NCBI GenBank assembly: GCA_003162425.1
Contig: PMOK01000284.1
Coordinates: 124,001-188,000, forward strand
Reading direction: 5' to 3'
Length of the DNA stretch: 64,000 nt
DNA from: Bryobacterales bacterium
GTDB taxonomy: Bacteria > Acidobacteriota > Terriglobia > Bryobacterales > Bryobacteraceae
Numbering within the stretch: position 1 is the stretch's first letter; each line of letters begins with the position of its first letter. The position numbers and the translations under genes were made by a program. Positions 8,760-24,181 of the stretch are shown here, one piece after another. Below the pieces are notes generated by a model. It was not told the origin of the DNA. It saw only the letters and a list, made by a program, of their open reading frames with translations, and did not search any database.

Positions 8760-9803
8760 TTACGAAGTTGCGATGATTGGGAACGATTCCGGACTAGCGG
8801 CCTGTCTGGCGCAACGTGTCAGTTCCTGATACCAATTTATGAATGGCAGTTCGGCTGGCTGCAGTAATCCTTCCATCGTCCGCCGGCAAACCGCCGCAAA
8901 GCGCGCGGACCGGCCCGCCATCCAATCCGCCGCGAGCTCGGTCAAGGTTTTGTGCCGCAGGCTGCCCAAGCCGTATTCGCGAGGAAACCCGTACTGCGCG
9001 GGAACAACATCTCCGTCAGCCTCGATCACTAGCGGCGAAACCAACCCCGCTAAATGACCAGGCTCGCGGCTGGCTGGCGCCAGGTTCTCCATCTGCAGAA
9101 GCAGCCCCTCAAAGGCGTTGCGGTTGACAAAATCCGTGTGAAAGGTCAATCTTCCGCCGTACCGCGCGCTCAACCGATTTACATGGAGCCACGCCATAGC
9201 CGCGTCGACGTCGGTGGGCGAGGATCCCTGTAGCAGTGATTCCGCGCGCCCAGCTTCCTCGAGTGGATGGATCTGCAGGCTCCGCGCTCCCTCTTCGTGT
9301 GCAAATTTGGCTACCCAGGGCAACTCGTTAACGTTGTGCCGCGTCAGGGTGAATATAAACCCGAAGCGAAAGCCTGCTTCCCGCAGGCCCGGCAGGCGCT
9401 CCCGCATAGCCTGAAACGCCAAGCCGGAGTCCCGGAGCCGGTTGTGAGACTCGGGTATTCCATCAATACTGATCGCAACCAGGTCGATCAAGCCACCGAG
9501 CATGCTGAGCCTTCGTCGATTCAGCAAAATGCCATTGGTAGTCACCGTTGTGCGCAAGCCAAGCTGTTTTGCCTGATGCAACAGCTCGGGCAATCCGGAA
9601 TAGAGCAAAGGTTCTCCGCCCGATACGCTAACCACGTTATAGCCCTCACAAGCGGCATCCCGGATGGCGCCGAGTAACAGATGCCGGTCCAAATCATCGA
9701 CTTCGCGCGGTCCGGAAGTTGAGTAGCAATGCAAGCACTTCAAATTGCAGCGGCGGGAAGGGTGCACTTGCAGAACCCGCTGATGACAACCAGTCCAGTT
9801 CAT
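8760..9803 (-). CDS. Radical SAM protein (peptide-modifying type, degenerate C-terminal cluster domain)
   Basis: The 347-residue protein has the radical SAM CxxxCxxC motif ('CNLKCLHC', about residue 20), the GGEP motif ('SVSGGEPLLY') and the TIM-barrel pattern to about residue 200 ('AISIDGIPESHNRLRD'). The C-terminus has the SPASM/twitch-like context ('VIEADGDVVPAQYGFPREYGLGSLRH') but most cysteines expected for auxiliary clusters are missing; only 'AAVCRRT' and 'LTRCARQ' remain. Start ATG at 9803 has GGAAGG 8 bases upstream; GTG at 9809 would be too close. It follows a 98-residue protein by 18 bases, the arrangement seen for peptide maturases and their precursors. The substrate is inferred only. 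Confidence 0.88.
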   Translation of the reverse strand: MNWTGCHQRVLQVHPSRRCNLKCLHCYSTSGPREVDDLDRHLLLGAIRDAACEGYNVVSVSGGEPLLYSGLPELLHQAKQLGLRTTVTTNGILLNRRRLSMLGGLIDLVAISIDGIPESHNRLRDSGLAFQAMRERLPGLREAGFRFGFIFTLTRHNVNELPWVAKFAHEEGARSLQIHPLEEAGRAESLLQGSSPTDVDAAMAWLHVNRLSARYGGRLTFHTDFVNRNAFEGLLLQMENLAPASREPGHLAGLVSPLVIEADGDVVPAQYGFPREYGLGSLRHKTLTELAADWMAGRSARFAAVCRRTMEGLLQPAELPFINWYQELTRCARQAASPESFPIIATS

Positions 9804-9821
9804 CGGCACACCCTTCCTTCT

Positions 9822-10118
9822 CTAGCCCTGCTCTCCGATAGTGGCTGGGCCAATCTGCACAAAGGCCTCGTCGATGGTTGGTATCCCATATGGGAACACC
9901 TTCACCGTCAGTCCTTGCGCGGTGAGCTGTCCCACAAGATTGCCAACGACATGGCCTGGCACCCGAGTGCCGCAGTATCCGTCGTCTTCATAACCGGTCA
10001 CCACCGTGCCGCCCTGGGCCAGCACGAGGTCGACGACTGCACGTAGATCTGCTTTGGAAACGGGCTTCTTGGCCGACAACAGATGATCGACAATTTGGTC
10101 TGGATTTTGCTTTGACAT
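9822..10118 (-). CDS. 98-residue protein, possible radical SAM substrate
   Basis: ATG at 10118 has a good GGAGAG ribosome binding site; the listed ORF's longer N-terminus is not needed. The protein has a helical N-terminal half ('QIVDHLLSAKKPVSKADLRAVVDLVLAQ') and a C-terminal half with 'TGYEDDGYCGTRVPGHV' and 'FPYGIPTIDEAFVQIG'. I do not recognise it as a named family. Its position directly before a radical SAM gene makes it a candidate substrate or carrier. The segment YGIPTIDEAF weakly resembles the YGPPIQEAIA stretch of the DUF1843 peptides encoded at 17-18 kb, which may be coincidence. Confidence 0.65.
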   Translation of the reverse strand: MSKQNPDQIVDHLLSAKKPVSKADLRAVVDLVLAQGGTVVTGYEDDGYCGTRVPGHVVGNLVGQLTAQGLTVKVFPYGIPTIDEAFVQIGPATIGEQG

Positions 10119-10339: not shown

Positions 10340-12781
10340 TTAGTTCCCGACGTAAAGTTGGAAGGGTCCCCAGTAATAGGGCTTGCGGTAGGTTTGCCCG
10401 GCGTGCAGCAGGCTAAGCTTGGCGGTGCGGAGTGCGTCTTCGGCCGGCACGCCACGCGCCAATTCTCCGTACAAAACCGACATCAAGGTAGAAGTGGACG
10501 CGTCACTCACGTCCCACAACCCGGCGATGACCTGACGCGCCCCCGCGTGCAGAAAAGCCCACGTTAGACCGACCAAGCCTTCGCCGGAATACGCCCGCGC
10601 GCCGGCGCTGCGGCACGAAGAAAGCGTCACCAGGTCGGCATTCAAGGGTATCTGCGTGATGTCGCGCGCTGTCAGAGCATAGGACGTGCCTTCCCGCGAG
10701 AGAATCAGTGCCGAATCCAACGGACTTGCCCGATTCGCCGTGGCATGAGCCGCGAAATGAATCAGCGAGAAGCGCGCTGCATCCGCTTTCCGGTATGCGG
10801 ACGGGCGCGACGCACGGCCTTCGAACACAACTTTGCTCGGAGGCGCGAAGAGCGCTGCAATGGTCTCTACTTCTTTCCGGCTGTTGGGAAGTTGCGGGTA
10901 CTCCGGCCCCGGCGATTCTGGATCTCCAATCGCAAGCAGCGAAGGCGGCGGCCTTCTCGATGGACGCGAATTCAGCAACAGACCAAGGGACGGTGCAACC
11001 GACAACGTGACATCTTCAACCCAGTATTTTGACGGATCACCGGGGGCCGGCAAGGTGTCGAAATTTAGAGAATGCAGTGCGCCGTCGGGTACGACAACTA
11101 CTCGGGAGCCGGCCGGTACTAGCTCGCGAATCGGACCCAGCAGAATCTTCGAGAGCTGCTCCCCGGCGGGGTGGTGCGAATCGATGGGGTCCCGGAGATC
11201 CTCGATGGCCGTTCGATAGCTATCCACCAGCTCGCGAATCCTGCTCTCCGCCGGTAGCGTGAAAGTTTCAAACTTCGTCGGCGTAATAACCCATAGGCGC
11301 GATTGTTTGGGGCCCAGCCAGTAAGAGAGCAGAATGTGCTTCGATGATCGTGCCCTTTGCTGGAGCTCGGACACGCTCGCGTAACGCTTCATGGGCGACC
11401 CAATGCGCTCAGTGAGAATCCGAGCGCGGCTGGATTCCACAACTTCGAGCGCCCTGTCCGTATGGCCCTCCTCGACCAGAAAATCCACATAGTTCCGGTA
11501 GAAGCGAATCATGCTGGAAAGATAGGAGAGCTTGTAGTCTTCTTTGGCGATGCTGCCCTGGCTGGTTTCGAGAGTAGTGATGGCCGAGCGGAATTGTGCC
11601 TCGGCCTTGCGCACATCGCCGGTCTGAACGTACAGGTCGGCCAAGCCGCCTCGTGCATCGAGGGCGGGTGTGGGATCTTCCGACGGCGAATTCACCACGG
11701 ACTGAAACAATATTTCGGACTCGGCGTACTGCTTGCGCGCCGCGGCAATGCGCGCCGAGTTCAAATGGTTATTGATTTCTTCACTGGTCAAGCCGAGTCC
11801 TTGGTTTATGGCGAGAGACTCCTGGTTGTATTTTTCGGCGGCGTCAAGCTGTTCCGTTGCGATGGCCGCCACTGCCAGCTTGGTTAGCCATTCGGCTGTC
11901 CGCGAACGGTTGTGCAGGTCTCTTGCGATCGCTAGCGCTTGCTTATAGCGACCGATAGCCCCCGGGAAATCGCCCGCCTCCAGTTGCATTGTCCCGATGT
12001 CGCCAAGCCATTCTTGTTGCGCGCTGCGATTTCCGATTTGGTCGAAACTGGACTCCGCCTGGACGAATCCATGGAGTGCCTGTTCAAAATCGCCTAGCCG
12101 GTAATAACACCATCCCAGGTTGCCGAATGTCTGCGCCGCGAGCGCAGTCGCGCCAATTTGCTGCGACAACGTGAGGGTTCTCTGGAACCAATAAATCGCC
12201 TCTTCGAATTGCGATTGGCCCAGGAACAAGTATCCGAGGTTACCCATGGCTTTGGCTTGTACATAAGCATCGCCCGACTGGACTGCGTCTTTTATGGCTC
12301 GCCGGGATGCGGCGTCCGCGTCTGGAAACCTGCCCAGTTTTGCAAACACTGGCCCTTGGCGCAGTTCCGCCTCCGCCATCAGAAGGGGCGACGCGCAGCT
12401 TTCCGCGAGAGCCTGGGCCTCGCGGAGCCCTTTCTCAGCCTTGGGATAGTCAGAAAGACGGTACCAGGCCCAGCCCTGGTGGATACGGCGCCGGGCCTGG
12501 AGGTCGGTCCTAGGCGGATTATCGGGGACGTTCAGTACCGAAAGAGCGGCGTCCGGTTGTCCCGCCAAAATGATTTCAGCCTTCAACAGCCGAAACTCCC
12601 AGCACCATTCCTGGGATAATCCACATTTCTTGAGTCCCTGCTCGGCCTGTGCTAGGGCTTGTTTCGTGTTGGCTTTCTTGAACGAGTCCTCAGCTTTCCC
12701 GTAAAGAACCTCGTTAGTCTCAATAGGCGCACGATGGCACCCACCGACGAGGGCAACCAGGATCAGAGGCCAACACTTTAT
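10340..12781 (-). CDS. TPR/CHAT-domain lipoprotein with probable AUA start
   Basis: The C-terminal third is a CHAT caspase-like peptidase domain: catalytic His in 'LIHFAAHATAN', catalytic Cys in 'LVTLSSCRSAGARAYSGEGLVGL', ending 'YYWGPFQLYVGN'. The preceding part is an array of tetratricopeptide repeats ('GNLGYLFLGQSQFEEAIYWFQ', 'GNLGWCYYRLGDFEQAL'). Reading from an ATA codon at 12781 gives an ideal lipoprotein signal, (M)KCWPLILVALVGGC, with lipobox LVGGC; no ATG, GTG or TTG is available between the promoter at 12908-12936 and the lipobox. The ATA overlaps the TAA of the upstream 32-residue ORF (ATAA). The ATG in the ORF track (12997) lies upstream of the promoter and gives a non-family N-terminus. 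Likely an envelope-anchored protease of the sigma/anti-sigma cluster. Confidence 0.85.
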   Translation of the reverse strand: MKCWPLILVALVGGCHRAPIETNEVLYGKAEDSFKKANTKQALAQAEQGLKKCGLSQEWCWEFRLLKAEIILAGQPDAALSVLNVPDNPPRTDLQARRRIHQGWAWYRLSDYPKAEKGLREAQALAESCASPLLMAEAELRQGPVFAKLGRFPDADAASRRAIKDAVQSGDAYVQAKAMGNLGYLFLGQSQFEEAIYWFQRTLTLSQQIGATALAAQTFGNLGWCYYRLGDFEQALHGFVQAESSFDQIGNRSAQQEWLGDIGTMQLEAGDFPGAIGRYKQALAIARDLHNRSRTAEWLTKLAVAAIATEQLDAAEKYNQESLAINQGLGLTSEEINNHLNSARIAAARKQYAESEILFQSVVNSPSEDPTPALDARGGLADLYVQTGDVRKAEAQFRSAITTLETSQGSIAKEDYKLSYLSSMIRFYRNYVDFLVEEGHTDRALEVVESSRARILTERIGSPMKRYASVSELQQRARSSKHILLSYWLGPKQSRLWVITPTKFETFTLPAESRIRELVDSYRTAIEDLRDPIDSHHPAGEQLSKILLGPIRELVPAGSRVVVVPDGALHSLNFDTLPAPGDPSKYWVEDVTLSVAPSLGLLLNSRPSRRPPPSLLAIGDPESPGPEYPQLPNSRKEVETIAALFAPPSKVVFEGRASRPSAYRKADAARFSLIHFAAHATANRASPLDSALILSREGTSYALTARDITQIPLNADLVTLSSCRSAGARAYSGEGLVGLTWAFLHAGARQVIAGLWDVSDASTSTLMSVLYGELARGVPAEDALRTAKLSLLHAGQTYRKPYYWGPFQLYVGN

Positions 12782-12876
12782 GGTGGGAACGGATTGCCAC
12801 CACTCCCGGGATTGAGACCTCCGAGTGTGGCCAAAAGGTGGATAGCCAGATGGATCAAACAGATGACAATGATCAT
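12778..12876 (-). CDS. 32-residue hydrophobic micropeptide ending SGGNPFPP
   Basis: This ORF is too short for the ORF track. ATG at 12874-12876 follows an AAGGAGGG ribosome binding site with 8-base spacing, and a TTGACA-N17-TATTCT promoter sits just upstream. The product is a hydrophobic N-terminal segment (MIIVICLIHLAIHLLATLGG) followed by a short tail LNPGSGGNPFPP. The last eight residues match the C-terminus of the neighbouring 263-residue protein (SGGDPYPP), which argues that the ORF is translated and that the tail is a shared recognition or processing signal. Its TAA overlaps the probable ATA start of the CHAT gene. The function is unknown; a membrane or secreted peptide linked to the CHAT protein is inferred. 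Confidence 0.7.
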   Translation of the reverse strand: MIIVICLIHLAIHLLATLGGLNPGSGGNPFPP

Positions 12877-12907
12877 TCGCAATACCCTCCTTAGAATATT
12901 CCGGAGC

Positions 12908-12936
12908 AGAATATCCTCGGCAGGTATGAATGTCAA
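12908..12936 (-). promoter_or_regulatory. Sigma-70 type promoter for micropeptide/CHAT transcript
   Basis: On the minus strand TTGACA (12931-12936) and TATTCT (12908-12913) are separated by exactly 17 bases. A start about 7 bases downstream gives a leader of roughly 25 bases before the 32-residue ORF, with its ribosome binding site inside. It shows that the CHAT unit can be transcribed independently of the sigma-factor operon upstream. Confidence 0.65.
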
Positions 12937-13044
12937 GTGTTTTCTTGAGTATTCTCGTGAATATGTTCTCGATTGCGGTCAAAAAAGCGATGGGCACGAT
13001 GCTACTGGAAATCGTGGGCCGTTTCAGCGATGAGAACCAACACC

Positions 13045-13836
13045 TTATGGAGGATACGGATCACCGCCGCTCTTCCCACCCGCCGTCTGTATGCCGCCTT
13101 TCACGGGGCATCCTAGGTCGATTTTGAGCATGACCAAGTGGCGCGTGTATTGGTGTACGAAAAACTGTCCCAAATGCACGGTTCCAAGCTGGGTGAGATG
13201 GATCCGGGCGGGCACTTCCATTGCATTCGAGGATTTTCCCGCCGCTGAGCAAAGAGAGAAGCCAACCACGTTTGGCATGCGGTCTCCTTCCGGCAGCGGA
13301 ACCGGATCTCCGTTGGGGGCTGGCATGCCCAGGCGCTTCAACTGGTCGCGAGTGCCGCCGTTCCCGAGCGCGCTTTGTAGTTTGGACCACGTTGGGCAAT
13401 CGGCAAGAACTCCCACCCCCATGTCTAATTCGTCCCAGAAGTAACTCCCGACGCGCAACCGTTCGAAGCGGCTACCCATCGTCGTGAAGGATGGCTCCTT
13501 GCCGCCCACGGAGAATGCGGACGCGATCCGGCACACCATCCGTTCGCACGTTATGACATCCAGGATGTTAAGTTTCTCGATGGCCGCCACCGCCAGCGTT
13601 TCAAATGGCCCATCCTTACCCCCGACGCCGGCCACCTCAGTGTACGCGGAGCCAAAGGAGAGGATCTCCTTATAGCGAAAGCCCTCCACTCGGGTTGAGC
13701 CATAGCCGCCACTCACTGGCAGCGCCAAGGCTGCTTGGGTGGGAATGAGATCTTCAAACGGCGAAACGATCTGGCCGGATGCCGCGACGGCGCTGGCATC
13801 GTGCAGATACGTGCTTCGGATTGTTTTGTCTTCCAT
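13045..13836 (-). CDS. Hypothetical protein with C-terminal SGGDPYPP tail
   Basis: I do not recognise a named domain in this 263-residue protein. No signal peptide is visible. It is rich in Gly and small residues with alternating hydrophobic strands ('GYGSTRVEGFRYKEILSFGSAYTEVAGVGG', 'PARIHLTQLGTVHLGQFFVHQYTRHLV'), suggesting a beta-rich fold. The last residues, GGKSGGDPYPP, match the end of the 32-residue peptide encoded downstream. ATG at 13836 has GGAG four bases upstream. It sits 12 bases after the anti-sigma gene and before the CHAT module, so it is probably an effector or substrate protein of the regulon. Confidence 0.75.
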   Translation of the reverse strand: MEDKTIRSTYLHDASAVAASGQIVSPFEDLIPTQAALALPVSGGYGSTRVEGFRYKEILSFGSAYTEVAGVGGKDGPFETLAVAAIEKLNILDVITCERMVCRIASAFSVGGKEPSFTTMGSRFERLRVGSYFWDELDMGVGVLADCPTWSKLQSALGNGGTRDQLKRLGMPAPNGDPVPLPEGDRMPNVVGFSLCSAAGKSSNAMEVPARIHLTQLGTVHLGQFFVHQYTRHLVMLKIDLGCPVKGGIQTAGGKSGGDPYPP

Positions 13837-13848
13837 TAGGCTCCTGGG

Positions 13849-14556
13849 TTAATCAAGTTTGAGAAAAAGTAAAAACCGATCGAGTTCAGCTTCAGGTTCG
13901 CCACCCGGCGCGGCGCCGCGGACAATTACTTTATATTGTCCGGATGGTAGCTGATTTCTCGAGATCAATATCTGCAGCGGCTTGCTAGGCGCGGGCGCGG
14001 GCACGCGCACGGAAAGGCGTGTGGCGCCGGCTTCGTCAACGAAAGACCAAAGATACTCCGCATAAGATTTCTCCCACGCCTTATCGACAACGAGTTCATA
14101 GGCCCGGTAGTTTTTGGGAACTTCTGTTGTTCGCTCGTCCCCGCGCGATAACGGCTGAAGCACGTAGCTGGCCGTGGCTTGCGGCGCCTGAGCCTGCCGC
14201 ACTTGTTCGCGTAGGCCAGGCACAACCACCACAGCCTGGTAGGCTGCCAGGCAAAGCAGCCCCACAGCCGCCAGCGCCGGCGCAGCGCTCCATGGCCGCT
14301 GCCACAGCAGGGTCCACCAGGCGAGTCGAGCCCGCTCGTTTTTCGATTCGGGCACGTAGGCGCCTGACGCGCCCGCACTCTCATCCAGGAAAACAGCTTT
14401 TGCGTTCTCTTCAAAGATGGCGCCTGCCCGTAGCTCCTGCGCGCACTGCGTGCATCCGAAAAAGTGAATCTCAAACTCTTCGGACTCCGGAGTTGATAGC
14501 TCGCCCAGGAGGTACCGCTCAACCACCCCCTTGTTTACTGCTTGTTCATGGTCCAT
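13849..14556 (-). CDS. Zinc-finger anti-sigma factor (zf-HC2)
   Basis: The 235-residue protein begins with an anti-sigma zinc finger: 'EEFEIHFFGCTQCAQELRAG', the HxxxCxxC site. A single transmembrane helix near residues 90-110 ('AAPALAAVGLLCLAAYQAVVVV') follows, then a periplasmic domain of about 110 residues with beta character ending 'ELDRFLLFLKLD'. Such proteins hold their ECF sigma factor inactive at the membrane until a signal arrives. ATG at 14556 is preferred to the listed 14577. It lies 45 bases downstream of the sigma gene, as expected for a sigma/anti-sigma pair. Confidence 0.9.
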   Translation of the reverse strand: MDHEQAVNKGVVERYLLGELSTPESEEFEIHFFGCTQCAQELRAGAIFEENAKAVFLDESAGASGAYVPESKNERARLAWWTLLWQRPWSAAPALAAVGLLCLAAYQAVVVVPGLREQVRQAQAPQATASYVLQPLSRGDERTTEVPKNYRAYELVVDKAWEKSYAEYLWSFVDEAGATRLSVRVPAPAPSKPLQILISRNQLPSGQYKVIVRGAAPGGEPEAELDRFLLFLKLD

Positions 14557-14601
14557 GTCACAGCCCTTTCGGCCCAACTTGCCTACCTACGCTCGCTTTC
14601 T

Positions 14602-15249
14602 TTAAGGCAAACCCGCACTGGCCCCCTTCGCCCTGACAATCTCCCGAAATCGTTCCTTGGCGCGATGGAGCAGCACACGCAGATAATCGTTGTCCACCTG
14701 AAAGTGACGCGATATCGCGGACCGATCTCCTTCCTCCAGGAACACCATCCTCAGCAACGCACGATCCTTCTCGGGAAGATCCGCTAGCACCTTCCGCACC
14801 ATGCGCTTCCGTTCTTCGGTCACAATATCGTCGGCGAATCTCACGCGTTCGTCGCGCGGCTCCACGGCCAGGCCGGTTGGCGATTGGCGCGACTCATGGC
14901 GCAGCACCTCAAGCATCACGTTGTTGCAGACCGACAAAACGAAGCCACCGAACCGCTCGGGATACTCGATCGTCTTACCGGATTGCAAATACTTGAGAAC
15001 ACGCGCGAATGTCTCCTGCCGGATTTCGTCGATCAGATGCCGCGCGCGAACGCGGTTCCGCAGTTTAAGCCAGATGACGTTGCTAAAGTACGCTGTGAAG
15101 TGACTCTCGGTTTCGAAATCACCACTCCTCAGACGCCTAAGGTATCCCGCATCGAATTGGGCGCTTACCAATGGAGCTCCAGTAACAGTTAGGGTACTAA
15201 AAGAGCGTTGCCTGCTCAATCGCAGATCCTCAACTTCACTGGAGATCAT
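14602..15249 (-). CDS. ECF-type RNA polymerase sigma factor
   Basis: Residues about 30-95 carry region 2 ('FTAYFSNVIWLKLRNRVRARHLIDEIRQETFARVLKYL', with the D-E-I-x-Q-E-T-F motif), and the C-terminal part carries region 4 ('LADLPEKDRALLRMVFLEEGDRSAISRHFQVDNDYLRVLLHRAKERF'). ATG at 15249 was chosen over the listed 15324 because it gives a normal length (215 residues) and has AAAGGG upstream, though the spacing is short. It should direct transcription of its own operon and perhaps of other CHAT-associated genes, under control of the adjacent anti-sigma factor. Confidence 0.92.
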   Translation of the reverse strand: MISSEVEDLRLSRQRSFSTLTVTGAPLVSAQFDAGYLRRLRSGDFETESHFTAYFSNVIWLKLRNRVRARHLIDEIRQETFARVLKYLQSGKTIEYPERFGGFVLSVCNNVMLEVLRHESRQSPTGLAVEPRDERVRFADDIVTEERKRMVRKVLADLPEKDRALLRMVFLEEGDRSAISRHFQVDNDYLRVLLHRAKERFREIVRAKGASAGLP

Positions 15250-15614
15250 AAACCCTTTCAGCACACTTGGGCGCCTACATCTCAAGTTTTTTGCCCTTAG
15301 TGCATTGCTGCTCACTAACACCACTTACCGGAGGGTGTTTGCGCCCATACGCTACGGCCTAGAGCTCGGCCATGGTTCGCTCATTATTTGTCGTGTCGTC
15401 TGGCTCGTGAGCGTTTCATCAGACGGAGGAGCTAGAACGCTTTTTTCGTTCTCGGCGCGCGTCTTGGCGGGGTCCGGTGTCTGGGATTTGCTACTTTGGC
15501 AGTTTTACCGCCCTTCAGTATATACCCGGCCTTTCAGGGCCTGGCGCGGTGGATGCCTCGATCTTCCCGGCAAGAGCGGTAAGGCTCGCACGTAAGAGCG
15601 ATGTCCGGGGAAAT
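15250..15614. other. Intergenic region between sigma gene and radical SAM gene
   Basis: I see no convincing gene. The upstream region of the sigma factor must hold its promoter, but no clear sigma-70 boxes are visible. Near 15525-15550 there is a GC-rich dyad around CCGGCCTTTCAGGGCCTGG without a T-run, so it is a weak terminator candidate for the radical SAM gene at most. Confidence 0.5.
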
Positions 15615-17120
15615 TCAAGGGCGCGCAGCCGCGCTTGCCACGTTGTCCGTCACCAACTGTGCCTTAGCTGCTTCCACCAGCCGGGTCACTTCGGCTATCA
15701 GTTCCTCGCGCCGCCTGTGCTCCTTCTCGTATGTCTCGGCCGCGTCGCGCAGATTCGAGCCGCAGTGCGGGCACGTCGTCTCATGGGGCCAGATGTATTG
15801 GTTACACGCGCGGCAGATATCCAGGGCGGGTGGGATGCGTCCATCGCGAGTCAACGGCGCGCCGCGAGACCGGCGGGTCAACTGCACCAAATCGTTTCGA
15901 GCCGGAGTGCGGCGGACCACTTCAGCAGGTCCCGCTCCATCGCCGGGAATCTGCTCCGCGATGAGCTCAAATTCGCCGACGCCGAACGACGCGGGCGAGG
16001 CTTCGCGCCGTTTCACAATCCGTTCGCGCAGCCCCTGCTTCCGGAGTTCGAGTACGCGGTAGTGGCAATACGGATTGTTGCCGGGGCGGCCCAGTAGCGA
16101 ATGCGAAGTCCAGGTGCAGCCGCCGCGGCAGACATCGGCGTAGTAGCAATCGCGGCAGAAGCCCCACAGGTCATTAACATCGCGGAGCCGTCCAAAATGG
16201 ATTTCGGGACTCGTCGCCCAGATTTGGTCCAGGCTCATGTCCCGCACGTTGCCTCCGGAGAAGCCGTTGGTGGCAAGCGATGGGCATCCCTTGACAGTGC
16301 CGTCCGCCTCGAGTGCCAGCACGGTGTGTCCGGCGCTGCAGCCAGTCCAATGCACGCGCTCGTCGCCTAGGCCTCGCCACAAATGTTCGTAGGGTCCGAA
16401 GTAACCAATGTTGTTGCCCACCACCATCAACAGCCCCCGTTCGACACCTTCGGAATAAAGGCGCGCGAGCAACGGCATAAACTCGGCGAGTTGATAGGGC
16501 TGCAACAGCAGATGGTCATTGTCCGCGGCATTTCCCATGGCGACGGTAAGCTGAATCTGCCAATGCGTGGCGCCGACATCGATTATCGTGTTCATCAACT
16601 CCGGCAGATGCGGCATTGTCTCAGAACCGATCTGCGTGTTGACGCTGATCCTCAACCCGGCAGCCTTAGCGCGACGCAGCGTATCCAGCGCACGGGCGAA
16701 GGAGCCGGGCACACCACGAACGCGGTCATGCAGCGCTTCCATGCCGTCCAGCGAGACTCCGATTCCCTGCAGTCCCGCGTCCACAGCAGCCGCTAGACGC
16801 TTGGGAGTGAGGTTCCGGCCGCCGGTCTGGATGGCGCAATACATCCCGTGGGACCGTATGGCGCGGACGATCTGGGTCCAGTCTGAACGCAGGTAGGCTT
16901 CGCCGCCGATCAGCGAGACCTCGCGGGTGCCTAGGCGCGCAAGATGCTCCACAACATCGAGGCATTCGGCGGTGGAGAGCTCGTTCGGCCGGCGGCGTCC
17001 CGCACGCGACCCACAATGCAGGCATTTCAGGTCACAGGCTAGCGTAATTTCCCACACGACGTGCACCGGAACGAAATTCCGATAGTCGTTTTCAACGCGG
17101 ATACGCGCGGGTTTCGGCAC
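15615..17120 (-). CDS. Radical SAM/SPASM enzyme, Y-X(10)-GDL-associated type
   Basis: The 501-residue protein has the radical SAM cluster motif C29-DLK-C33-LH-C36, the GGE motif ('SLIGGEAYLR'), and a SPASM domain with cysteines at 'WTGCSAGHTVLALEADGTVKGCPS' and 'FCRDCYYADVCRGGCTW' plus 'NPYCHYR', giving auxiliary Fe-S clusters. After about residue 400 there is an unusual tail: a zinc ribbon ('CRACNQYIWPHETTCPHCG') and a charged coiled coil. It lies 7 bases downstream of four DUF1843 peptides having the pattern Y-X(10)-G-D-[LVI], the known neighbours of this enzyme family. It probably modifies them. The start is GTG 17120 with AGGAA upstream. Confidence 0.92.
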   Translation of the reverse strand: MPKPARIRVENDYRNFVPVHVVWEITLACDLKCLHCGSRAGRRRPNELSTAECLDVVEHLARLGTREVSLIGGEAYLRSDWTQIVRAIRSHGMYCAIQTGGRNLTPKRLAAAVDAGLQGIGVSLDGMEALHDRVRGVPGSFARALDTLRRAKAAGLRISVNTQIGSETMPHLPELMNTIIDVGATHWQIQLTVAMGNAADNDHLLLQPYQLAEFMPLLARLYSEGVERGLLMVVGNNIGYFGPYEHLWRGLGDERVHWTGCSAGHTVLALEADGTVKGCPSLATNGFSGGNVRDMSLDQIWATSPEIHFGRLRDVNDLWGFCRDCYYADVCRGGCTWTSHSLLGRPGNNPYCHYRVLELRKQGLRERIVKRREASPASFGVGEFELIAEQIPGDGAGPAEVVRRTPARNDLVQLTRRSRGAPLTRDGRIPPALDICRACNQYIWPHETTCPHCGSNLRDAAETYEKEHRRREELIAEVTRLVEAAKAQLVTDNVASAAARP

Positions 17121-17127
17121 GCCGTTC

Positions 17128-17322
17128 CTACTTCTTATGCTCGGCTTTGGCTATCTCAATTTTAAGGGCTTGCAAAGCGGCGGGAAGGTCGCCAGCCTGT
17201 TGCAAGTACTGCTCCGCTTCCTGGGCGACTTGTTTCATGCGATTGATATCGCCGGAGCAGATCGCATCATGGATAGTCACTCCGTAGAGCGGGATTGGAT
17301 GGTGTTTTTCTTTTTCAGCCAT
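17128..17322 (-). CDS. DUF1843 peptide 1 (Y-X10-GDI)
   Basis: This 64-residue peptide carries 'LYGVTIHDAICSGDI', i.e. Y-X(10)-G-D-I, followed by 'NRMKQVAQEAEQYLQQ' and a lysine-rich end. It is the most diverged of four tandem copies and the only one with a Cys in the X10 stretch and a His replacing Gln. The ribosome binding site GAAGGAG is clear. It is immediately upstream of the radical SAM/SPASM gene, so it is the copy most tightly coupled to it. Probably a substrate of that enzyme; no modified residue is known to me. Confidence 0.85.
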   Translation of the reverse strand: MAEKEKHHPIPLYGVTIHDAICSGDINRMKQVAQEAEQYLQQAGDLPAALQALKIEIAKAEHKK

Positions 17323-17337
17323 GTTTACAATCTCCTT

Positions 17338-17535
17338 CTATTTCTTGCTCTTGTGTTCATGCTTGGCGATCTCGATTTTCAGGTATTCGAGAGCGGCCCC
17401 CACATCCCCGGCCTGCTGCAAGTGCTGTTCGGCCTCGGCGGCGAGTTGCTTCATCTTGGCCAGGTCGCCCTTTGCGATGGCTTCCTGGATTGGCGGCCCG
17501 TACGGAGGCACGGGGCCCCGGTCTGATTGCGCCAT
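17338..17535 (-). CDS. DUF1843 peptide 2 (Y-X10-GDL)
   Basis: This 65-residue paralogue has 'PYGPPIQEAIAKGDL' (Y-X(10)-G-D-L), then the helical 'KMKQLAAEAEQHLQQAGD' and 'AALEYLKIEIAKHEHKSKK'. AAAGGAGGG lies just upstream of the ATG. It is separated from copy 1 by 15 bases and from copy 3 by 15 bases, so the array is one transcript. The repeated helical unit could also be read as two short ankyrin- or TPR-like helices, with the N-terminal 10-15 residues variable between copies. Confidence 0.88.
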   Translation of the reverse strand: MAQSDRGPVPPYGPPIQEAIAKGDLAKMKQLAAEAEQHLQQAGDVGAALEYLKIEIAKHEHKSKK

Positions 17536-17550
17536 AAAAATCCCTCCTTT

Positions 17551-17742
17551 TTACTGTTTGCGCGAAAGCTTTGCGATTTCGATTTTCAAGTACTCGAGCG
17601 CGGCCCGCACATCGCCAACCTGCGCGAGGTGCTTCTCGGCTGCGGCTTCGAGCTGCTTCATCCGCGCCACATCGCCCTTCGCGATAGCTTCCTGGATAGG
17701 CGGTCCGTAAGGAACAATGGACGCTGGTTCTTTTTCCGCCAT
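17551..17742 (-). CDS. DUF1843 peptide 3 (Y-X10-GDV)
   Basis: This 63-residue paralogue contains 'PYGPPIQEAIAKGDV' and 'ARMKQLEAAAEKHLAQVGD'. The start at 17742 has GGAAGGA upstream; the listed ORF start at 17784 adds a non-conserved extension and is rejected. Together with copies 1, 2 and 4 it shows strong conservation of Y-G-P-P-I-Q-E-A-I-A-K-G-D and of the C-terminal 'AALEYLKIEIAK', with variation at the ends, as expected after recent duplication. Confidence 0.87.
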   Translation of the reverse strand: MAEKEPASIVPYGPPIQEAIAKGDVARMKQLEAAAEKHLAQVGDVRAALEYLKIEIAKLSRKQ

Positions 17743-17785
17743 AAGTCCTTCCTTGCTACCCGGGTTTCCACCCGGACTTATCAAC

Positions 17786-17968
17786 TCAATGAGGTTTGGT
17801 GGTTCGCGAAGCTTTCGCGATTTCGATCTTTAAATACTCAAGGGCCGCCCGCACGTCACCCGCTTGCTTGAGGTGTTCCTCGGCTTCCGCAGCAAGCTGC
17901 TTCATGCGCGGCAAATCCCCTTTTGCAATCGCCTCCTGGATGGGAGGACCGTAGAGTACAACAGCCAT
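17786..17968 (-). CDS. DUF1843 peptide 4 (first gene of the array)
   Basis: This 60-residue paralogue begins 'MAVVLYGPPIQEAIAKGDL', so its N-terminus before the Tyr is shorter than in the other copies. The longer ORF (18001) would place its start inside the promoter and is rejected. The -10 box ends only about 10 bases before the ATG and no ribosome binding site fits, so the message is probably leaderless or nearly so. It is the promoter-proximal copy of the operon leading to the radical SAM/SPASM gene. Confidence 0.85.
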   Translation of the reverse strand: MAVVLYGPPIQEAIAKGDLPRMKQLAAEAEEHLKQAGDVRAALEYLKIEIAKASRTTKPH

Positions 17969-17977
17969 AGGTTTTAA

Positions 17978-18006
17978 TTTATAACCGGTTTCTCGCAACA
18001 TGTCAA
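17978..18006 (-). promoter_or_regulatory. Promoter of the DUF1843 / radical SAM operon
   Basis: TTGACA (18001-18006) and TATAAA (17978-17983) on the minus strand are separated by 17 bases, an almost perfect sigma-70 promoter. The expected start site is within a few bases of the ATG at 17968. Confidence 0.7.
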
Positions 18007-18914: not shown

Positions 18915-20834
18915 ATGAAACCCGTGGCACTGATCAGCATGCCGACGCTTTCCGCGCGGTTCCCCTCTTTCCAGTTAGCCCTGCTGAAACCAACCCTGGA
19001 ACGGGCCGGGATTCCGGCGCAGACCTTTTCGCTCTTTATGTATTTTGGGACACGCATCGGCTGGAAGATCAACGAGGCGATTGCGGACGTGTGGCCCAGC
19101 ATGGTTGGTGAATGGATCTGGACGAAAGCCGCGTTCGGAGCGGAAATAGAAGCGCGCGATGAGGAGTATTTTGGCGCCTACGATTACATTTTCCGCGCGA
19201 TCTGCAAGCGCGCCGGGTGTACAACCAGGCGGTTTCAGAAAATTCGCGACAAAGATGCGCCTGAGTTCATCGATTTCTGCGTCGACGCCGTGGACTGGAA
19301 GCGGTTCGGCCTGATCGGTTTCTCAGTTGTGTTTCAGCAGAGCCTGGCCAGCATCGCTCTGGCAAAAGCGCTGAAAAAACGATACCCGGAGATCCCGATC
19401 GTGTTCGGGGGCGCGAGCCTGGAAGACGACATCGCTGACGAGATCATGCGCGGATGCCCCGAGGTCGACTATCTGCATTGCGGCGATGGCGAGATCTCGT
19501 TTCCCGAGATGGTCCATCGTCTGGACCGTGGTGAATCGATGCAGGGCCTGCGCGGCGTCATGTGGCGCAACGGAGGCAAGATCGAATACGCCGGGCGCGC
19601 GCCGAACTTTCAGGCGATGAATGAGACACCGATCCCGCAGTTTGACGAGTATTTTTACGCGCGCGAAGAAGGGGGTTATGAGGACTGGGATGAGGCCTGC
19701 GAGCCTATGCTCCCTATCGAATCGGCGCGCGGCTGCTGGTGGGGCGAAAAGCATCACTGCACCTTTTGCGGGCTGAACCGTTCCGGCATGGAGTTTCGCG
19801 CCAAGGACCCCGAGCGTGTCATTGAACAGATCGAGCACCTGTCGCGCAAACATGGCATCTACAGTTTCAACGCCATCGACAACATCATGGCGCCGGAGTA
19901 CACCGAAAAGCTTTTCCGGCGGCTCGCGGAGTCGAACACCGATGTGGAGTTGCACTACGAGATCCGCCCGAACTTCTCGCGCACGCAGCTAGGGCGAATG
20001 CGCAAGGGCGGCCTCACTTCGGTGCAGCCTGGCGTCGAAAGCCTGTCAACGAACATTCTGAAGAGTATGCGCAAGATGACGACGGGCATGCGGAATGTCG
20101 AACTCATTAAGTGGTGCACCTATCACGACATCAGTTGCATGTACAACATCCTGATGCGATTCCCGGGCGAGACCGTGGAAGATTACCGGATGCAGGCCGA
20201 ACTGGCGCCGAAGATCGTGCATTTGCAGCCGCCCTGGGGCATCGTGAAGGCTCGAGCCGACCGCGGCTCGCCGATGTATACGGATCCGGCATCGCAGTCC
20301 ATCCGGCGGCTCAAACCGGCCGTTTGCTACAACTACCTTTTCCCGAAGAAGTTCAATCTCGAACGAGTGTCATACTACTTCGATCACGAAATGGACAACG
20401 TGGTGGACGAGGAACATTACGACGACTTGCTGGAAGCCGTTGCGAAGTGGCAGGCCAGTTGGACGGAGCGCGGGCACCCCTACCTGCGCTATCGCAAGGC
20501 GTTGACCAGCATCACTATTGAAGACGGGCGGCGGCGCAAGCAGCGTAAATATCAGTACGCCGACGGCCCGGCGCTGTTGTATGAGTATTGCGCGGACGCT
20601 CGAACGCCTCGCGACATCGCGTCGGCCATGGGGACTGATCCATGGGTGCAGCAGGCCCTGGACGACTTCATCCGAAAAGATCTCATCCTATTCCTGGATG
20701 GCCGCTATTTAAGCCTCGCGCTTCCAGCCAATCCGAACTTCGAGATGTCCGTTGGTCCTCAAGCCGCGGCCCTACCGCAACAACGCCCCAGCGACGGTTT
20801 TGTGCCCGCGATCGAACTGGTCACGGTGAGATGA
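18915..20834 (+). CDS. B12-binding radical SAM RiPP C-methyltransferase (rSAM_ocin_1 type)
   Basis: The 639-residue protein has an N-terminal cobalamin-binding-like Rossmann part ('GLIGFSVVFQQSLASIALAKALKKRYPEIPIVFGGAS') and a radical SAM domain whose cluster motif has the unusual spacing C274-x7-C282-x2-C285 ('GCWWGEKHHCTFCG'), typical of the family annotated as RiPP maturation radical SAM C-methyltransferase. 'AIDNIMAPEY' and 'IRPNFSR' fit the barrel, and an extra C-terminal domain of about 170 residues follows. Such enzymes methylate unactivated carbons of peptide side chains. It is first in an operon with the fusion protein (ATGA overlap) and the repeat-containing putative precursor, which is the likely substrate. 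Confidence 0.9.
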   Translation: MKPVALISMPTLSARFPSFQLALLKPTLERAGIPAQTFSLFMYFGTRIGWKINEAIADVWPSMVGEWIWTKAAFGAEIEARDEEYFGAYDYIFRAICKRAGCTTRRFQKIRDKDAPEFIDFCVDAVDWKRFGLIGFSVVFQQSLASIALAKALKKRYPEIPIVFGGASLEDDIADEIMRGCPEVDYLHCGDGEISFPEMVHRLDRGESMQGLRGVMWRNGGKIEYAGRAPNFQAMNETPIPQFDEYFYAREEGGYEDWDEACEPMLPIESARGCWWGEKHHCTFCGLNRSGMEFRAKDPERVIEQIEHLSRKHGIYSFNAIDNIMAPEYTEKLFRRLAESNTDVELHYEIRPNFSRTQLGRMRKGGLTSVQPGVESLSTNILKSMRKMTTGMRNVELIKWCTYHDISCMYNILMRFPGETVEDYRMQAELAPKIVHLQPPWGIVKARADRGSPMYTDPASQSIRRLKPAVCYNYLFPKKFNLERVSYYFDHEMDNVVDEEHYDDLLEAVAKWQASWTERGHPYLRYRKALTSITIEDGRRRKQRKYQYADGPALLYEYCADARTPRDIASAMGTDPWVQQALDDFIRKDLILFLDGRYLSLALPANPNFEMSVGPQAAALPQQRPSDGFVPAIELVTVR

Positions 20835-23677
20835 GGGCCTCGACGGCTGTCTCCGCCAAACAGCAAACCGAACGCGAAGAACTGCTTGGGCTATTGCTCG
20901 AGCGCGGAATTCTGCAGCGCTCGGAAACGCAGCCCGTACTTTCACGCGACGGCTCATCAGCGCGCTGGATGCTGGATTCGCTCGCGGTGACGCTGACTCC
21001 GCGCGGTGCTGAGCTTGCTGGGCGGATGGTCCTGGAGCAATTGCAGAGATTCGACGGGCGACAATTGGCGGCGTACGGGCTGACCGCCGTTCCCATCCTG
21101 CAATCGGCTGTGCTGCAGTCCAGCGGCCGCTATAAGGGATTGCTAGTCCGTAGCGAACGCAAGCCGCACGGATCGCAAAAGTTGATCGAAGGCCAATTCG
21201 ATCCGGACGAGCCCGTGATCCTGATCGAGGATTCGATAGCGTCGGGGATGAGCGCGCGGGAGGGCGTTCAGAAGCTGGAGGAAGCAGGCCTGCGCGTGGA
21301 GGGATGCGTCGCGTTGGTCCGCTTCGGTTGGGAAGGCGGCTGTTCAGATTTCGCGGAACGCGGCTACCACGTGGAAGCGATCTACGACATCTTTGAAGAC
21401 TTGATGTCTCGCATGGAAAGTGAAAAGGGACCGGATTATAACCCTACCAAATGGTTTCCCGAATTTAGCTGGGGTGCACGCCGCGCGCCCGAGGGACTGC
21501 ATCCGGCACACCTGGCGCGCGAGGTCCTGCGTGAATACTTTACCAGCGGTGAATGGCTGGCGCCGCCGCGCTCGCTCGATCGGGATGACTACGATTCCCA
21601 TGGTGGCGCGTGGGTGAGCATCCGTTCGCGCGAGGACATCCATGATCGGCACGCGCGCGACGGCTTTTGGCATTTTCCGAATGAGAGGTCATGGGGCGTT
21701 GCCGAAGATGTTGTTCGCGCTGCTGTACGAACGGCTCGCGAACTGCCAAAGGGATCCGACGCGCTGAAGTTGATCGAATCGAGCTACGTCGCGGTGACTT
21801 TCTTTTCCGCCCTCGAAGCGGCGACGGTGGGAGAGCTGGACAACAATCGTTACGGGATTGTGGTGGTGAGTGGCGAACGGCCCGAGATCATGGGCGGCGC
21901 ATTACCTCGGATGCCGGGGGTTCGCGATGAATGGCAGCAGTTCCATCATGCCCGAATCAACAATGCGCAACTCTACGAGTACGAGCCTTACGTTATCTAT
22001 CGGCACGCGGTGTCGAAGTTCGTCGAGCCCGGCGCACCTTGGCAATCGAGCGGCGTTCCTGGCTCTGACGAGTCGCCGGACCTGGGAGCGCTCGCAAGGC
22101 ACGCGCGAGATCTGGTCCTGGGCCGCGAGCGGCGCGAACCGCTCCCGCAGATAACGCTGACGGAAACGGTGAAGCAGCTATTCGTCACTATTTATGTGGA
22201 TGGCGAGCCCTGCGGCTGCATGGGCTCCGGAATCGGTGACTTGGAGAACGATCTGCGTACGCTGACGAAAGCCGCGCTTCAAGATGAGCGGTTCGAGCAC
22301 CCGGAGATCGACGAAGACGCGAGCGTAGCGGTGAGTGTTTCGCTGCTCTCCAATGAACTAGAGATGGGTGACTTCTCGCCCGAAGAGGTGCGGAGCAAGT
22401 ATCGGCACGGCCAACAGGCTCTCATGGTGGAACAGAACCCGCGGTCCGGCATGCTTCTGCCGTTCATGACGTCGTGGCTCAGCCTGGACGCGGAGGGCTT
22501 TGTTGACGAAGTGCTCGACAAAGCCGGCGTCACCCGAGCTCCCTATAACTGGATCCGCTTCGATTGCGATACGTGGCTGGCCGATGAAGACGGCGTTGGA
22601 AAACTGGAGGGTGGTTTCAATCGTCTAACTCCGACGTTGCAGGCGGACGAGATTGCGCGGCTGCACGTCGACTATCTGCTTCGCAACCAGCGTGAGGACG
22701 GGGCGCTATACTTCGGCTATTACGTTTTCGAAAACATGTTGTATCAAGGGATCGACATGACGCGGCTGGCGCACGGCGCCTGGACTCTGGCGCGCGCCGG
22801 AAAGTCTGATGCCGCCGCATCCGCTCTGAAGCACATCCTTGGTCACGCTGACGACCCGGTGACGGGCCTCGCCCGCGATGCTTTTTTGCTTCTGACGCTG
22901 TGTGAGCCGGGCATGCAAGAGATGGTTAGCCGGTCGAAGCTTGCAGAAAAGTTATGGGCGTCGATCGACCGGCACGGGCGGGTCACAACGTGGGTTCCCG
23001 CGGCTCCAAGTGAAGATGACGACACCGGCGATGAGAGCGCTTCCGAAGAGGTGTCGCCTGAAGATCTTCAGAATTATGTGCCGGGTCAGGTTTTGCTCGC
23101 CTTGGCAGCGGCGGTGCGGACGGGTGCGACGGACGCGGACGAACGGAAGATCGAAAGCGCGTTCCGTTATTACCGTCACCGGTTCCGGTACAAGCGCGAT
23201 TTCGGCCAGGTTTCGTGGATGTCGCTCGCGGCGGCGGCATGGTGGCGCCTGAGGGAGCGGCGCGAGTTCGCCGATTTCCTTTTCGAGATTACCGACTTTA
23301 TCCTGACGTTCCAGCAGACTCACCCCGAGCAGGCGACACCAGGCGCGTTCCTGACTGGCCAACAGCCCGACCCGCCGGGATTCACCACGGCGGTTTATCT
23401 GGAGGCGGTGGCGTCTGCGCTCGACGTCGCGTCCGCGCTCTCAGACACAGCTAGGGAACACCGGTACGATGATGCGTGGCGGCTTGGTTTCACTTTCCTC
23501 GGCCGGCTAATCATTCAGGATCGCGATTCATCGATTCTGCCGAACGCCGAGTACGCGGTGGGTGGGCTCCGGGAAAACCTCTACAGCGGCCACGTCCGTA
23601 TCGACTTTGTTCAGCATTCCCTCGCCGCGATCATGGAGCGGCATCCAGATGTTTTCGTAAACAATCAGACAGATTAG
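20831..23677 (+). CDS. Phosphoribosyltransferase-AMMECR1-alpha/alpha toroid fusion protein
   Basis: The real start is ATG 20831, overlapping the upstream stop (ATGA); the listed 20642 start runs inside the radical SAM gene. The 948 residues show three parts. Residues 1-200 resemble a type I phosphoribosyltransferase, with the PRPP-loop motif 'VILIEDSIASGMSA' at about 129-142. Residues about 410-590 resemble AMMECR1 ('GEPCGCMGSGIGDLENDLRTL', 'EDASVAVSVSLLSNE'); the stretch 230-400 ('HPAHLAREVLREYF') may be a diverged first AMMECR1 copy. From about 600 on, repeated helical pairs ('ARLHVDYLLRNQREDGALYF', 'TRLAHGAWTLARAG') suggest an alpha/alpha toroid. AMMECR1 is known in the Amme-Memo-radical SAM family. 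A peptide-tailoring role is inferred from position. Confidence 0.85.
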   Translation: MRASTAVSAKQQTEREELLGLLLERGILQRSETQPVLSRDGSSARWMLDSLAVTLTPRGAELAGRMVLEQLQRFDGRQLAAYGLTAVPILQSAVLQSSGRYKGLLVRSERKPHGSQKLIEGQFDPDEPVILIEDSIASGMSAREGVQKLEEAGLRVEGCVALVRFGWEGGCSDFAERGYHVEAIYDIFEDLMSRMESEKGPDYNPTKWFPEFSWGARRAPEGLHPAHLAREVLREYFTSGEWLAPPRSLDRDDYDSHGGAWVSIRSREDIHDRHARDGFWHFPNERSWGVAEDVVRAAVRTARELPKGSDALKLIESSYVAVTFFSALEAATVGELDNNRYGIVVVSGERPEIMGGALPRMPGVRDEWQQFHHARINNAQLYEYEPYVIYRHAVSKFVEPGAPWQSSGVPGSDESPDLGALARHARDLVLGRERREPLPQITLTETVKQLFVTIYVDGEPCGCMGSGIGDLENDLRTLTKAALQDERFEHPEIDEDASVAVSVSLLSNELEMGDFSPEEVRSKYRHGQQALMVEQNPRSGMLLPFMTSWLSLDAEGFVDEVLDKAGVTRAPYNWIRFDCDTWLADEDGVGKLEGGFNRLTPTLQADEIARLHVDYLLRNQREDGALYFGYYVFENMLYQGIDMTRLAHGAWTLARAGKSDAAASALKHILGHADDPVTGLARDAFLLLTLCEPGMQEMVSRSKLAEKLWASIDRHGRVTTWVPAAPSEDDDTGDESASEEVSPEDLQNYVPGQVLLALAAAVRTGATDADERKIESAFRYYRHRFRYKRDFGQVSWMSLAAAAWWRLRERREFADFLFEITDFILTFQQTHPEQATPGAFLTGQQPDPPGFTTAVYLEAVASALDVASALSDTAREHRYDDAWRLGFTFLGRLIIQDRDSSILPNAEYAVGGLRENLYSGHVRIDFVQHSLAAIMERHPDVFVNNQTD

Positions 23678-23687
23678 GAGAATCAGA

Positions 23688-24119
23688 ATGGCAGCTAAGA
23701 AACGACCAACGAAAAAGCGAAAGAAGCCAGGCGTGATAGTAGAAGTTGCGCCACCTAGAAAGAAGAAGCCGTACGGGCCGGTTGTAGAGGTCGCGCCCGG
23801 TAAGAGGCCGAAGGGCCGGCCGATCGTCGAGGTCGCACCGCCGAGGAAGGGCAAGAAGAAGGCGGGGTCGCGAGTCACTGAAGTGGCTCCAATGACGAGG
23901 CGAAAGCGGCCGGCCAGCGGAGTGATCGTGGAAGTGGCTCCGGAAATCGCACCCGATATCGCGAGGAAGTCGCGCGGAGTGATCAAGGAGATGGCGCCGG
24001 CATTGAAGAGGAGATCGGCGGGGACAATCAAGGAGATTGCGCCTGCGACGAAGAGAAAGGGGAATTCGAGACCAGGCGTGATCGTGGAAGTTGCGCCGCC
24101 AGTGGACAAGAAACAGTAG
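23688..24119 (+). CDS. Repetitive basic peptide, candidate multicore RiPP precursor
   Basis: The 143-residue product has eight copies of a short core with consensus G-[VTP]-[IV]-[VKT]-E-[VIM]-A-P, with the Glu at residues 19, 34, 48, 65, 82, 101, 116 and 134, plus a partial EIAP at 86-89. The cores are separated by Lys/Arg-rich spacers such as 'PRKKKPYG' and 'PRKGKKKAG'. Spacing of the Glu residues is 14-19. There is no long leader; residues 1-13 are just basic. AGGAG lies 7 bases before the ATG, and it is 10 bases after the fusion protein gene. No cysteines or aromatic residues occur in the cores. Alternative: a histone H1-like basic protein, but the conserved acidic core argues against that. 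Confidence 0.85.
   Translation: MAAKKRPTKKRKKPGVIVEVAPPRKKKPYGPVVEVAPGKRPKGRPIVEVAPPRKGKKKAGSRVTEVAPMTRRKRPASGVIVEVAPEIAPDIARKSRGVIKEMAPALKRRSAGTIKEIAPATKRKGNSRPGVIVEVAPPVDKKQ
23730..24107 (+). repeat. Eight tandem E-[VIM]-A-P core repeats inside the precursor gene
   Basis: At the DNA level the copies vary synonymously and by substitution (for example gtagaagttgcgcc, gtagaggtcgcgcc, atcgaggtcgcac-like variants), so the protein motif and not the DNA has been kept. Copies 1, 5 and 8 share the full G-V-I-V-E-V-A-P form; copies 6 and 7 have K before E and M or I after it. The pattern of repeated units with variable spacers is typical of multicore peptide precursors. Confidence 0.8.
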
Positions 24120-24181
24120 TAAGCGGGAGGGCGGCAGGAATCCGGGCTCATGCCGTCCACTGCTCAGGGACGCTAGCCAGT

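Follow-up and report, generated by a model that had tools for sequence, protein, structure and literature searches.

The 32-residue open reading frame (micropeptide ORF) between the gene for the 263-aa protein P0002 and the TPR-CHAT lipoprotein gene is read here, with a probability of roughly 0.5, as a leader ORF that would load ribosomes and hand them to the CHAT gene; its C-terminal end and that of P0002 look like copies of one DNA segment. We infer the duplication, transcription, translation and coupling that this reading involves, and any use of the peptide, from sequence. On the minus strand of the window (the whole 64-kb stretch of DNA analyzed here) the genes run in the order ECF sigma factor, anti-sigma-like protein, P0002, 32-aa ORF and TPR-CHAT lipoprotein (Table 1).

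Table 1. Features of the operon and of the P0002/CHAT junction, with positions in the window.
Feature	Position	Strand	Basis or remark
TPR-CHAT lipoprotein, lipobox LVGGC, Cys codon 12739-12737	10340..12781	-	Likeliest start ATA 12781
Direct repeat copy 2: micropeptide tail, stop, first CHAT codons	12770..12805	-	Repeat search, alignment
Micropeptide ORF, 32 aa, hydrophobic start and SGGNPFPP end	12778..12876	-	Translation, hydropathy
Shine-Dalgarno sequence AAGGAGG	12886..12892	-	9 nt before micropeptide ATG
Sigma70-like promoter, TTGACA-17-TATTCT (putative)	12908..12936	-	10/12 matches
Direct repeat copy 1: P0002 tail, stop, 8 nt after	13037..13072	-	Repeat search, alignment
P0002, 263 aa, beta-rich, conserved C-terminal tail	13045..13836	-	Translation, profile search, AlphaFold
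Membrane anti-sigma-like protein (zf-HC2, just below Pfam cut-off), conserved operon	13849..14577	-	
ECF sigma factor, conserved operon	14602..15324	-	

The micropeptide ORF translates as MIIVICLIHLAIHLLATLGGLNPGSGGNPFPP. A preliminary description had matched its end, SGGNPFPP, to the SGGDPYPP with which P0002 ends, and both translations were confirmed. The same description regarded the two as independent C-termini. This does not hold, because both tails fall inside one direct repeat of 36 nt, 78% identical, whose copies lie 267 nt apart and run past both stop codons. The gapped alignment of the repeat reaches a score of 44, the highest of 2000 shuffles being 37; the part beyond the stop codons, with 7 identical bases in register, is not significant alone, as 207 of the 2000 shuffles reach its score. 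The 8.7-Mb genome contains the pattern GG[DN]P[YF]PP-stop at only two places, the ends of the micropeptide and of P0002, and the Asn form of the pattern has one further occurrence in 237 genomes of the family, with no ORF behind it. Among the 122 loci compared, the wider variant GG[DN]P[YFW]P is found beyond the window only at L022, which favors copying within the lineage of the window. Over the eight tail codons, five of the seven differences between micropeptide and P0002 are synonymous where 6.0 of 24 sites are (p = 0.013), a small sample to which the constraint on P0002 itself contributes; this lean hints at selection on the peptide, beyond coupling alone, and to that extent speaks against the leader reading.

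Relatives of P0002 were detected by profile in 108 of the 237 family genomes and, in a phylum-wide sample, in 27 genomes besides the window's own. The unit conserved across the phylum is a four-gene operon encoding the ECF sigma factor, the membrane anti-sigma protein, P0002 and the TPR-CHAT lipoprotein. The TPR-CHAT gene lies directly downstream of P0002 at 118 of 122 loci, the remaining four ending within ~500 nt of a contig end, and in most relatives the two genes overlap or abut with no micropeptide between them. The catalytic His is kept in all 99, and the Cys in all 97, readable CHAT sequences. To our knowledge, little is known of the proteins with which CHAT proteases naturally work outside CRISPR systems, and this phylum-wide unit, with its intact CHAT dyad, its ECF sigma/anti-sigma pair and, in P0002, a neighbor whose C-terminal end is conserved, provides a definite candidate partner. 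For the further CHAT genes that this genome carries (L128-L131), no P0002 homologue besides the window's was found.

The micropeptide itself was found in one genome only. Protein and pattern searches of the 237 family genomes returned the micropeptide and nothing related in the other 236, the weak matches inspected being unrelated, and its interpretation as a conserved small protein family was rejected. The closest related cluster, with a P0002 that is 50% identical, has no micropeptide, and its P0002 stop codon overlaps the CHAT ATG; in four other genomes of the genus, P0002 is either absent or distant and without a micropeptide. The preliminary description had named lack of conservation in close relatives with the same CHAT cluster as grounds against its reading, and no such conservation is seen, the closest of these relatives being only 50% identical at P0002. 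Short tail-ending ORFs before CHAT genes in other Acidobacteria, also proposed there, were likewise not found: a motif scan, outside which part of the loci may have fallen, returned only the window's, and six junctions read by eye, most of them wide, contained no tail-bearing small ORF.

Short ORFs with a strong ribosome binding site and a stop codon overlapping the next start are a known arrangement for translational coupling. The 32-aa ORF resembles such leaders in its ribosome binding site and, should CHAT start at the candidate ATA 12781-12779, in its stop codon, TAA 12780-12778, which overlaps that ATA in the sequence ATAA. It differs from them in that it carries a copy of the C terminus of a neighboring protein, and in that the downstream start would be non-canonical. 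No canonical start codon (ATG, GTG or TTG) is present in the CHAT frame of the window up to 45 codons from the lipobox Cys; the only such in-frame codons farther upstream, GTG 12997 and TTG 12982, are more than 80 codons before it. Of the near candidates, ATA, from which a normal lipoprotein signal would be read, appears likeliest, followed by CTG 12766. The sequence ATAA follows the tail in both copies of the repeat, that of P0002 included, which makes a sequencing slip unlikely. Such junctions recur in relatives: 11 of 102 (L020, L025, L030, L037, L039, L071, L079, L135, L142, L145 and L178) have a P0002 junction where the CHAT gene lacks the three canonical start codons over the same distance from its lipobox, which suggests non-canonical coupled starts. 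Against the leader reading stand the rarity of ATA as a start codon, here a putative one, and a CHAT frame uninterrupted by stop codons throughout the 267-nt stretch, which would allow a CHAT start at GTG 12997 with no leader involved. The stretch GYSAPEY in the CHAT frame has a kinase-like look, and no Pfam match was found for it.

Translation of CHAT in most relatives is probably coupled to that of P0002. A duplication of the P0002/CHAT junction would have occurred in the window genome, its second copy coming to be preceded by a hydrophobic start of 20 codons, with a strong ribosome binding site and, further ahead, a promoter-like site; the 32-codon ORF formed in this way, with its stop codon overlapping the likeliest CHAT start, may let CHAT be expressed apart from P0002, whose own conserved tail would close its last beta strand. 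This reading draws on the repeat over both tails and stop codons with its shared rare variant, on the adjacent and mostly overlapping or abutting P0002 and CHAT genes of relatives that lack the micropeptide, and on the strong ribosome binding site and the ATA inside ATAA ahead of a gene with no canonical start near its lipobox. Duplication at this junction gains plausibility from L133 (G007), where tandem P0002 genes precede CHAT; the upstream copy there is split over two frames, and both copies have NG-x-x-x-PPR-like tails. The micropeptide may exemplify a leader ORF that took over the end of a neighboring gene through local duplication.

The signals ahead of the ORF bear both on the leader reading and on the less probable alternative of an ORF without function, a remnant left when the junction was duplicated, with CHAT starting elsewhere. 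The ribosome binding site pointed out in the preliminary description was borne out as a strong one, AAGGAGG lying 9 nt before the ATG in one of only four such pairs in the 64-kb window, and this site with its good spacing argues against a remnant, as do tail residues kept despite saturated synonymous change. The claim of an own promoter fared less well: the TTGACA-17-TATTCT element is present, but it is no better than chance, ~1.1 such sites being expected in the ~3-kb region scanned. The codon usage of the ORF is undecided between coding and non-coding, and the RNA at the P0002/CHAT junction has no special fold (z = -0.41). All three points weigh against a leader; the promoter score and the codon usage, together with the occurrence in a single genome and a G+C content of 48% in the insert versus 58% in the window, agree with a remnant.

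The P0002-family tail is a real, conserved C-terminal motif as judged from the sequences compared, and apparently one so far undescribed. It typically has the form [ND]G-x-x-[WYF]-P-P, with [ND]G within the last 14 residues at 102 of 122 loci and Pro as the last residue at 67 of 122; the window has a variant, with GG where the family has [ND]G. In a set of 102 sequences, NG falls within the last 14 residues in 78, compared with at most 8 in any of six upstream control stretches. The preliminary description had treated absence of the tail from homologues of the 263-residue protein as grounds to abandon its reading, and the tail is present at most of the loci compared. As a short element, the motif is open to experiment. 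The frequent Pro before the stop codon, and the many CHAT starts that overlap the P0002 stop, could also be taken to mean that the tail works not as a protein element but by fixing where CHAT starts, through recoding or a stall at termination. This is very improbable, and largely refuted by the independence of the tail from the spacing of the P0002-CHAT junction: [ND]G is as conserved where CHAT starts far downstream (21/24 versus 72/87), and a Pro end is as frequent there (13/24 versus 48/87, Fisher p = 1.0), which argues that the tail acts at the protein level. CHAT also lies in different frames at different loci, which counts against recoding and led to the rejection of a P0002-CHAT fusion by frameshift.

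In the AlphaFold model of P0002 the tail lies in the last beta strand, with a mean pLDDT of 97 for residues 251-260 and 87 for residues 261-263, and it is likewise placed in the model of a second family member; the overall mean pLDDT exceeds 91 in both. A free, unstructured tag as the role of the tail is less likely on these models, with which recognition of a strand end is compatible. A C-terminal sorting signal calls for an unstructured tail outside the folded domain, and the predicted tail is part of the last strand. The suggestion that the two C-termini share a signal thus survives in part, in that the tail is a conserved family element tied to CHAT, but the two tails appear to be one copied DNA segment, and a free sorting or cleavage signal is less likely given the modeled strand. 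Searches of solved structures, viral structures and folds for P0002 gave nothing significant. P0002 has no evident signal peptide, and the neighboring CHAT protein is a predicted lipoprotein and so exported, a mismatch of compartments. When eight P0002 relatives were run singly against the NCBIfam choice-of-anchor P model (NF040603), six scored above the 27-bit cut-off, the best at 40.3, with matches covering at most model positions 1-143 of 185 and leaving the conserved tail outside; P0002 itself has no match to this model and, unlike choice-of-anchor P proteins, lacks an evident signal peptide.

A search of the literature on CHAT proteins with ECF sigma factors or choice-of-anchor proteins identified only the Craspase work as relevant. 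In Craspase, Csx30 inhibits an ECF sigma factor and is cut by the TPR-CHAT protease Csx29, which depends for this cleavage on C-terminal residues of Csx30 (PMC10028731). The window operon is like the Csx29, Csx30 and CASP-sigma set in having a TPR-CHAT protein with conserved His and Cys beside an ECF sigma gene and, in P0002, a candidate partner with a conserved C-terminal end where the Csx30 C terminus is needed for cleavage. It is unlike Craspase in that its CHAT protein is a predicted lipoprotein, in that P0002 is without resemblance to known structures and in that the operon encodes a zf-HC2 anti-sigma-like protein of its own. The window CHAT protein scores 19.7 bits against the Csx29 family model (cut-off 300) and is not a member. 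Gene order and the conserved end suggest P0002 as the CHAT partner.

The first 20 residues of the micropeptide are hydrophobic (Kyte-Doolittle 2.6 over 18 residues), and a hydrophobic segment followed by the tail is what would be expected of a functional small membrane protein that shows a second P0002 tail to CHAT as a decoy, tether or substrate. This is rather unlikely. The mainly synonymous tail differences, the conservation of the tail in a family whose gene adjoins CHAT and the analogous dependence of Csx29 on the Csx30 C terminus (PMC10028731) all point toward it; the peptide is found in no other genome, however, the comparison covers only eight codons, and the P0002 tail, inside a predicted strand, may have a structural role instead of serving as a docking tag. 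More speculative still, and improbable in our estimation, is a general scheme in which CHAT proteases of the Acidobacteriota read the conserved tail of a dedicated beta-rich partner and so control an ECF sigma pathway, this genome having split off a membrane-held tail as a micropeptide by which the protease is tuned.

On either side of the operon lie radical SAM genes, among them a GDL-motif RiPP maturase (TIGR03913), and these might suggest the 32-aa ORF as a RiPP precursor. This is scarcely credible: precursor-like peptides already stand beside the maturase at 17128-18001 and are nothing like the 32-aa ORF, and radical SAM genes occur at none of 12 related operons. The GDL-motif cluster (15615-18001, minus strand) has a radical SAM/SPASM maturase scoring 859 bits to TIGR03913 and four similar short peptides (17128-17322, 17338-17535, 17551-17784 and 17786-18001), most with a PIQEAIAKGD-type sequence; in relatives it shows no link to the CHAT operon. 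Just downstream of CHAT, a radical SAM protein and a 98-aa protein without family matches (8760-9809 and 9822-10118, minus strand) form a pair that is absent from the 12 related operons. A gene at 18915-20834 on the plus strand encodes a radical SAM protein of B12 type that scores 546 bits to the RiPP methyltransferase family TIGR03975, and an ORF at 23528-24160 on the minus strand contains repeated GGATSTITP-like segments.
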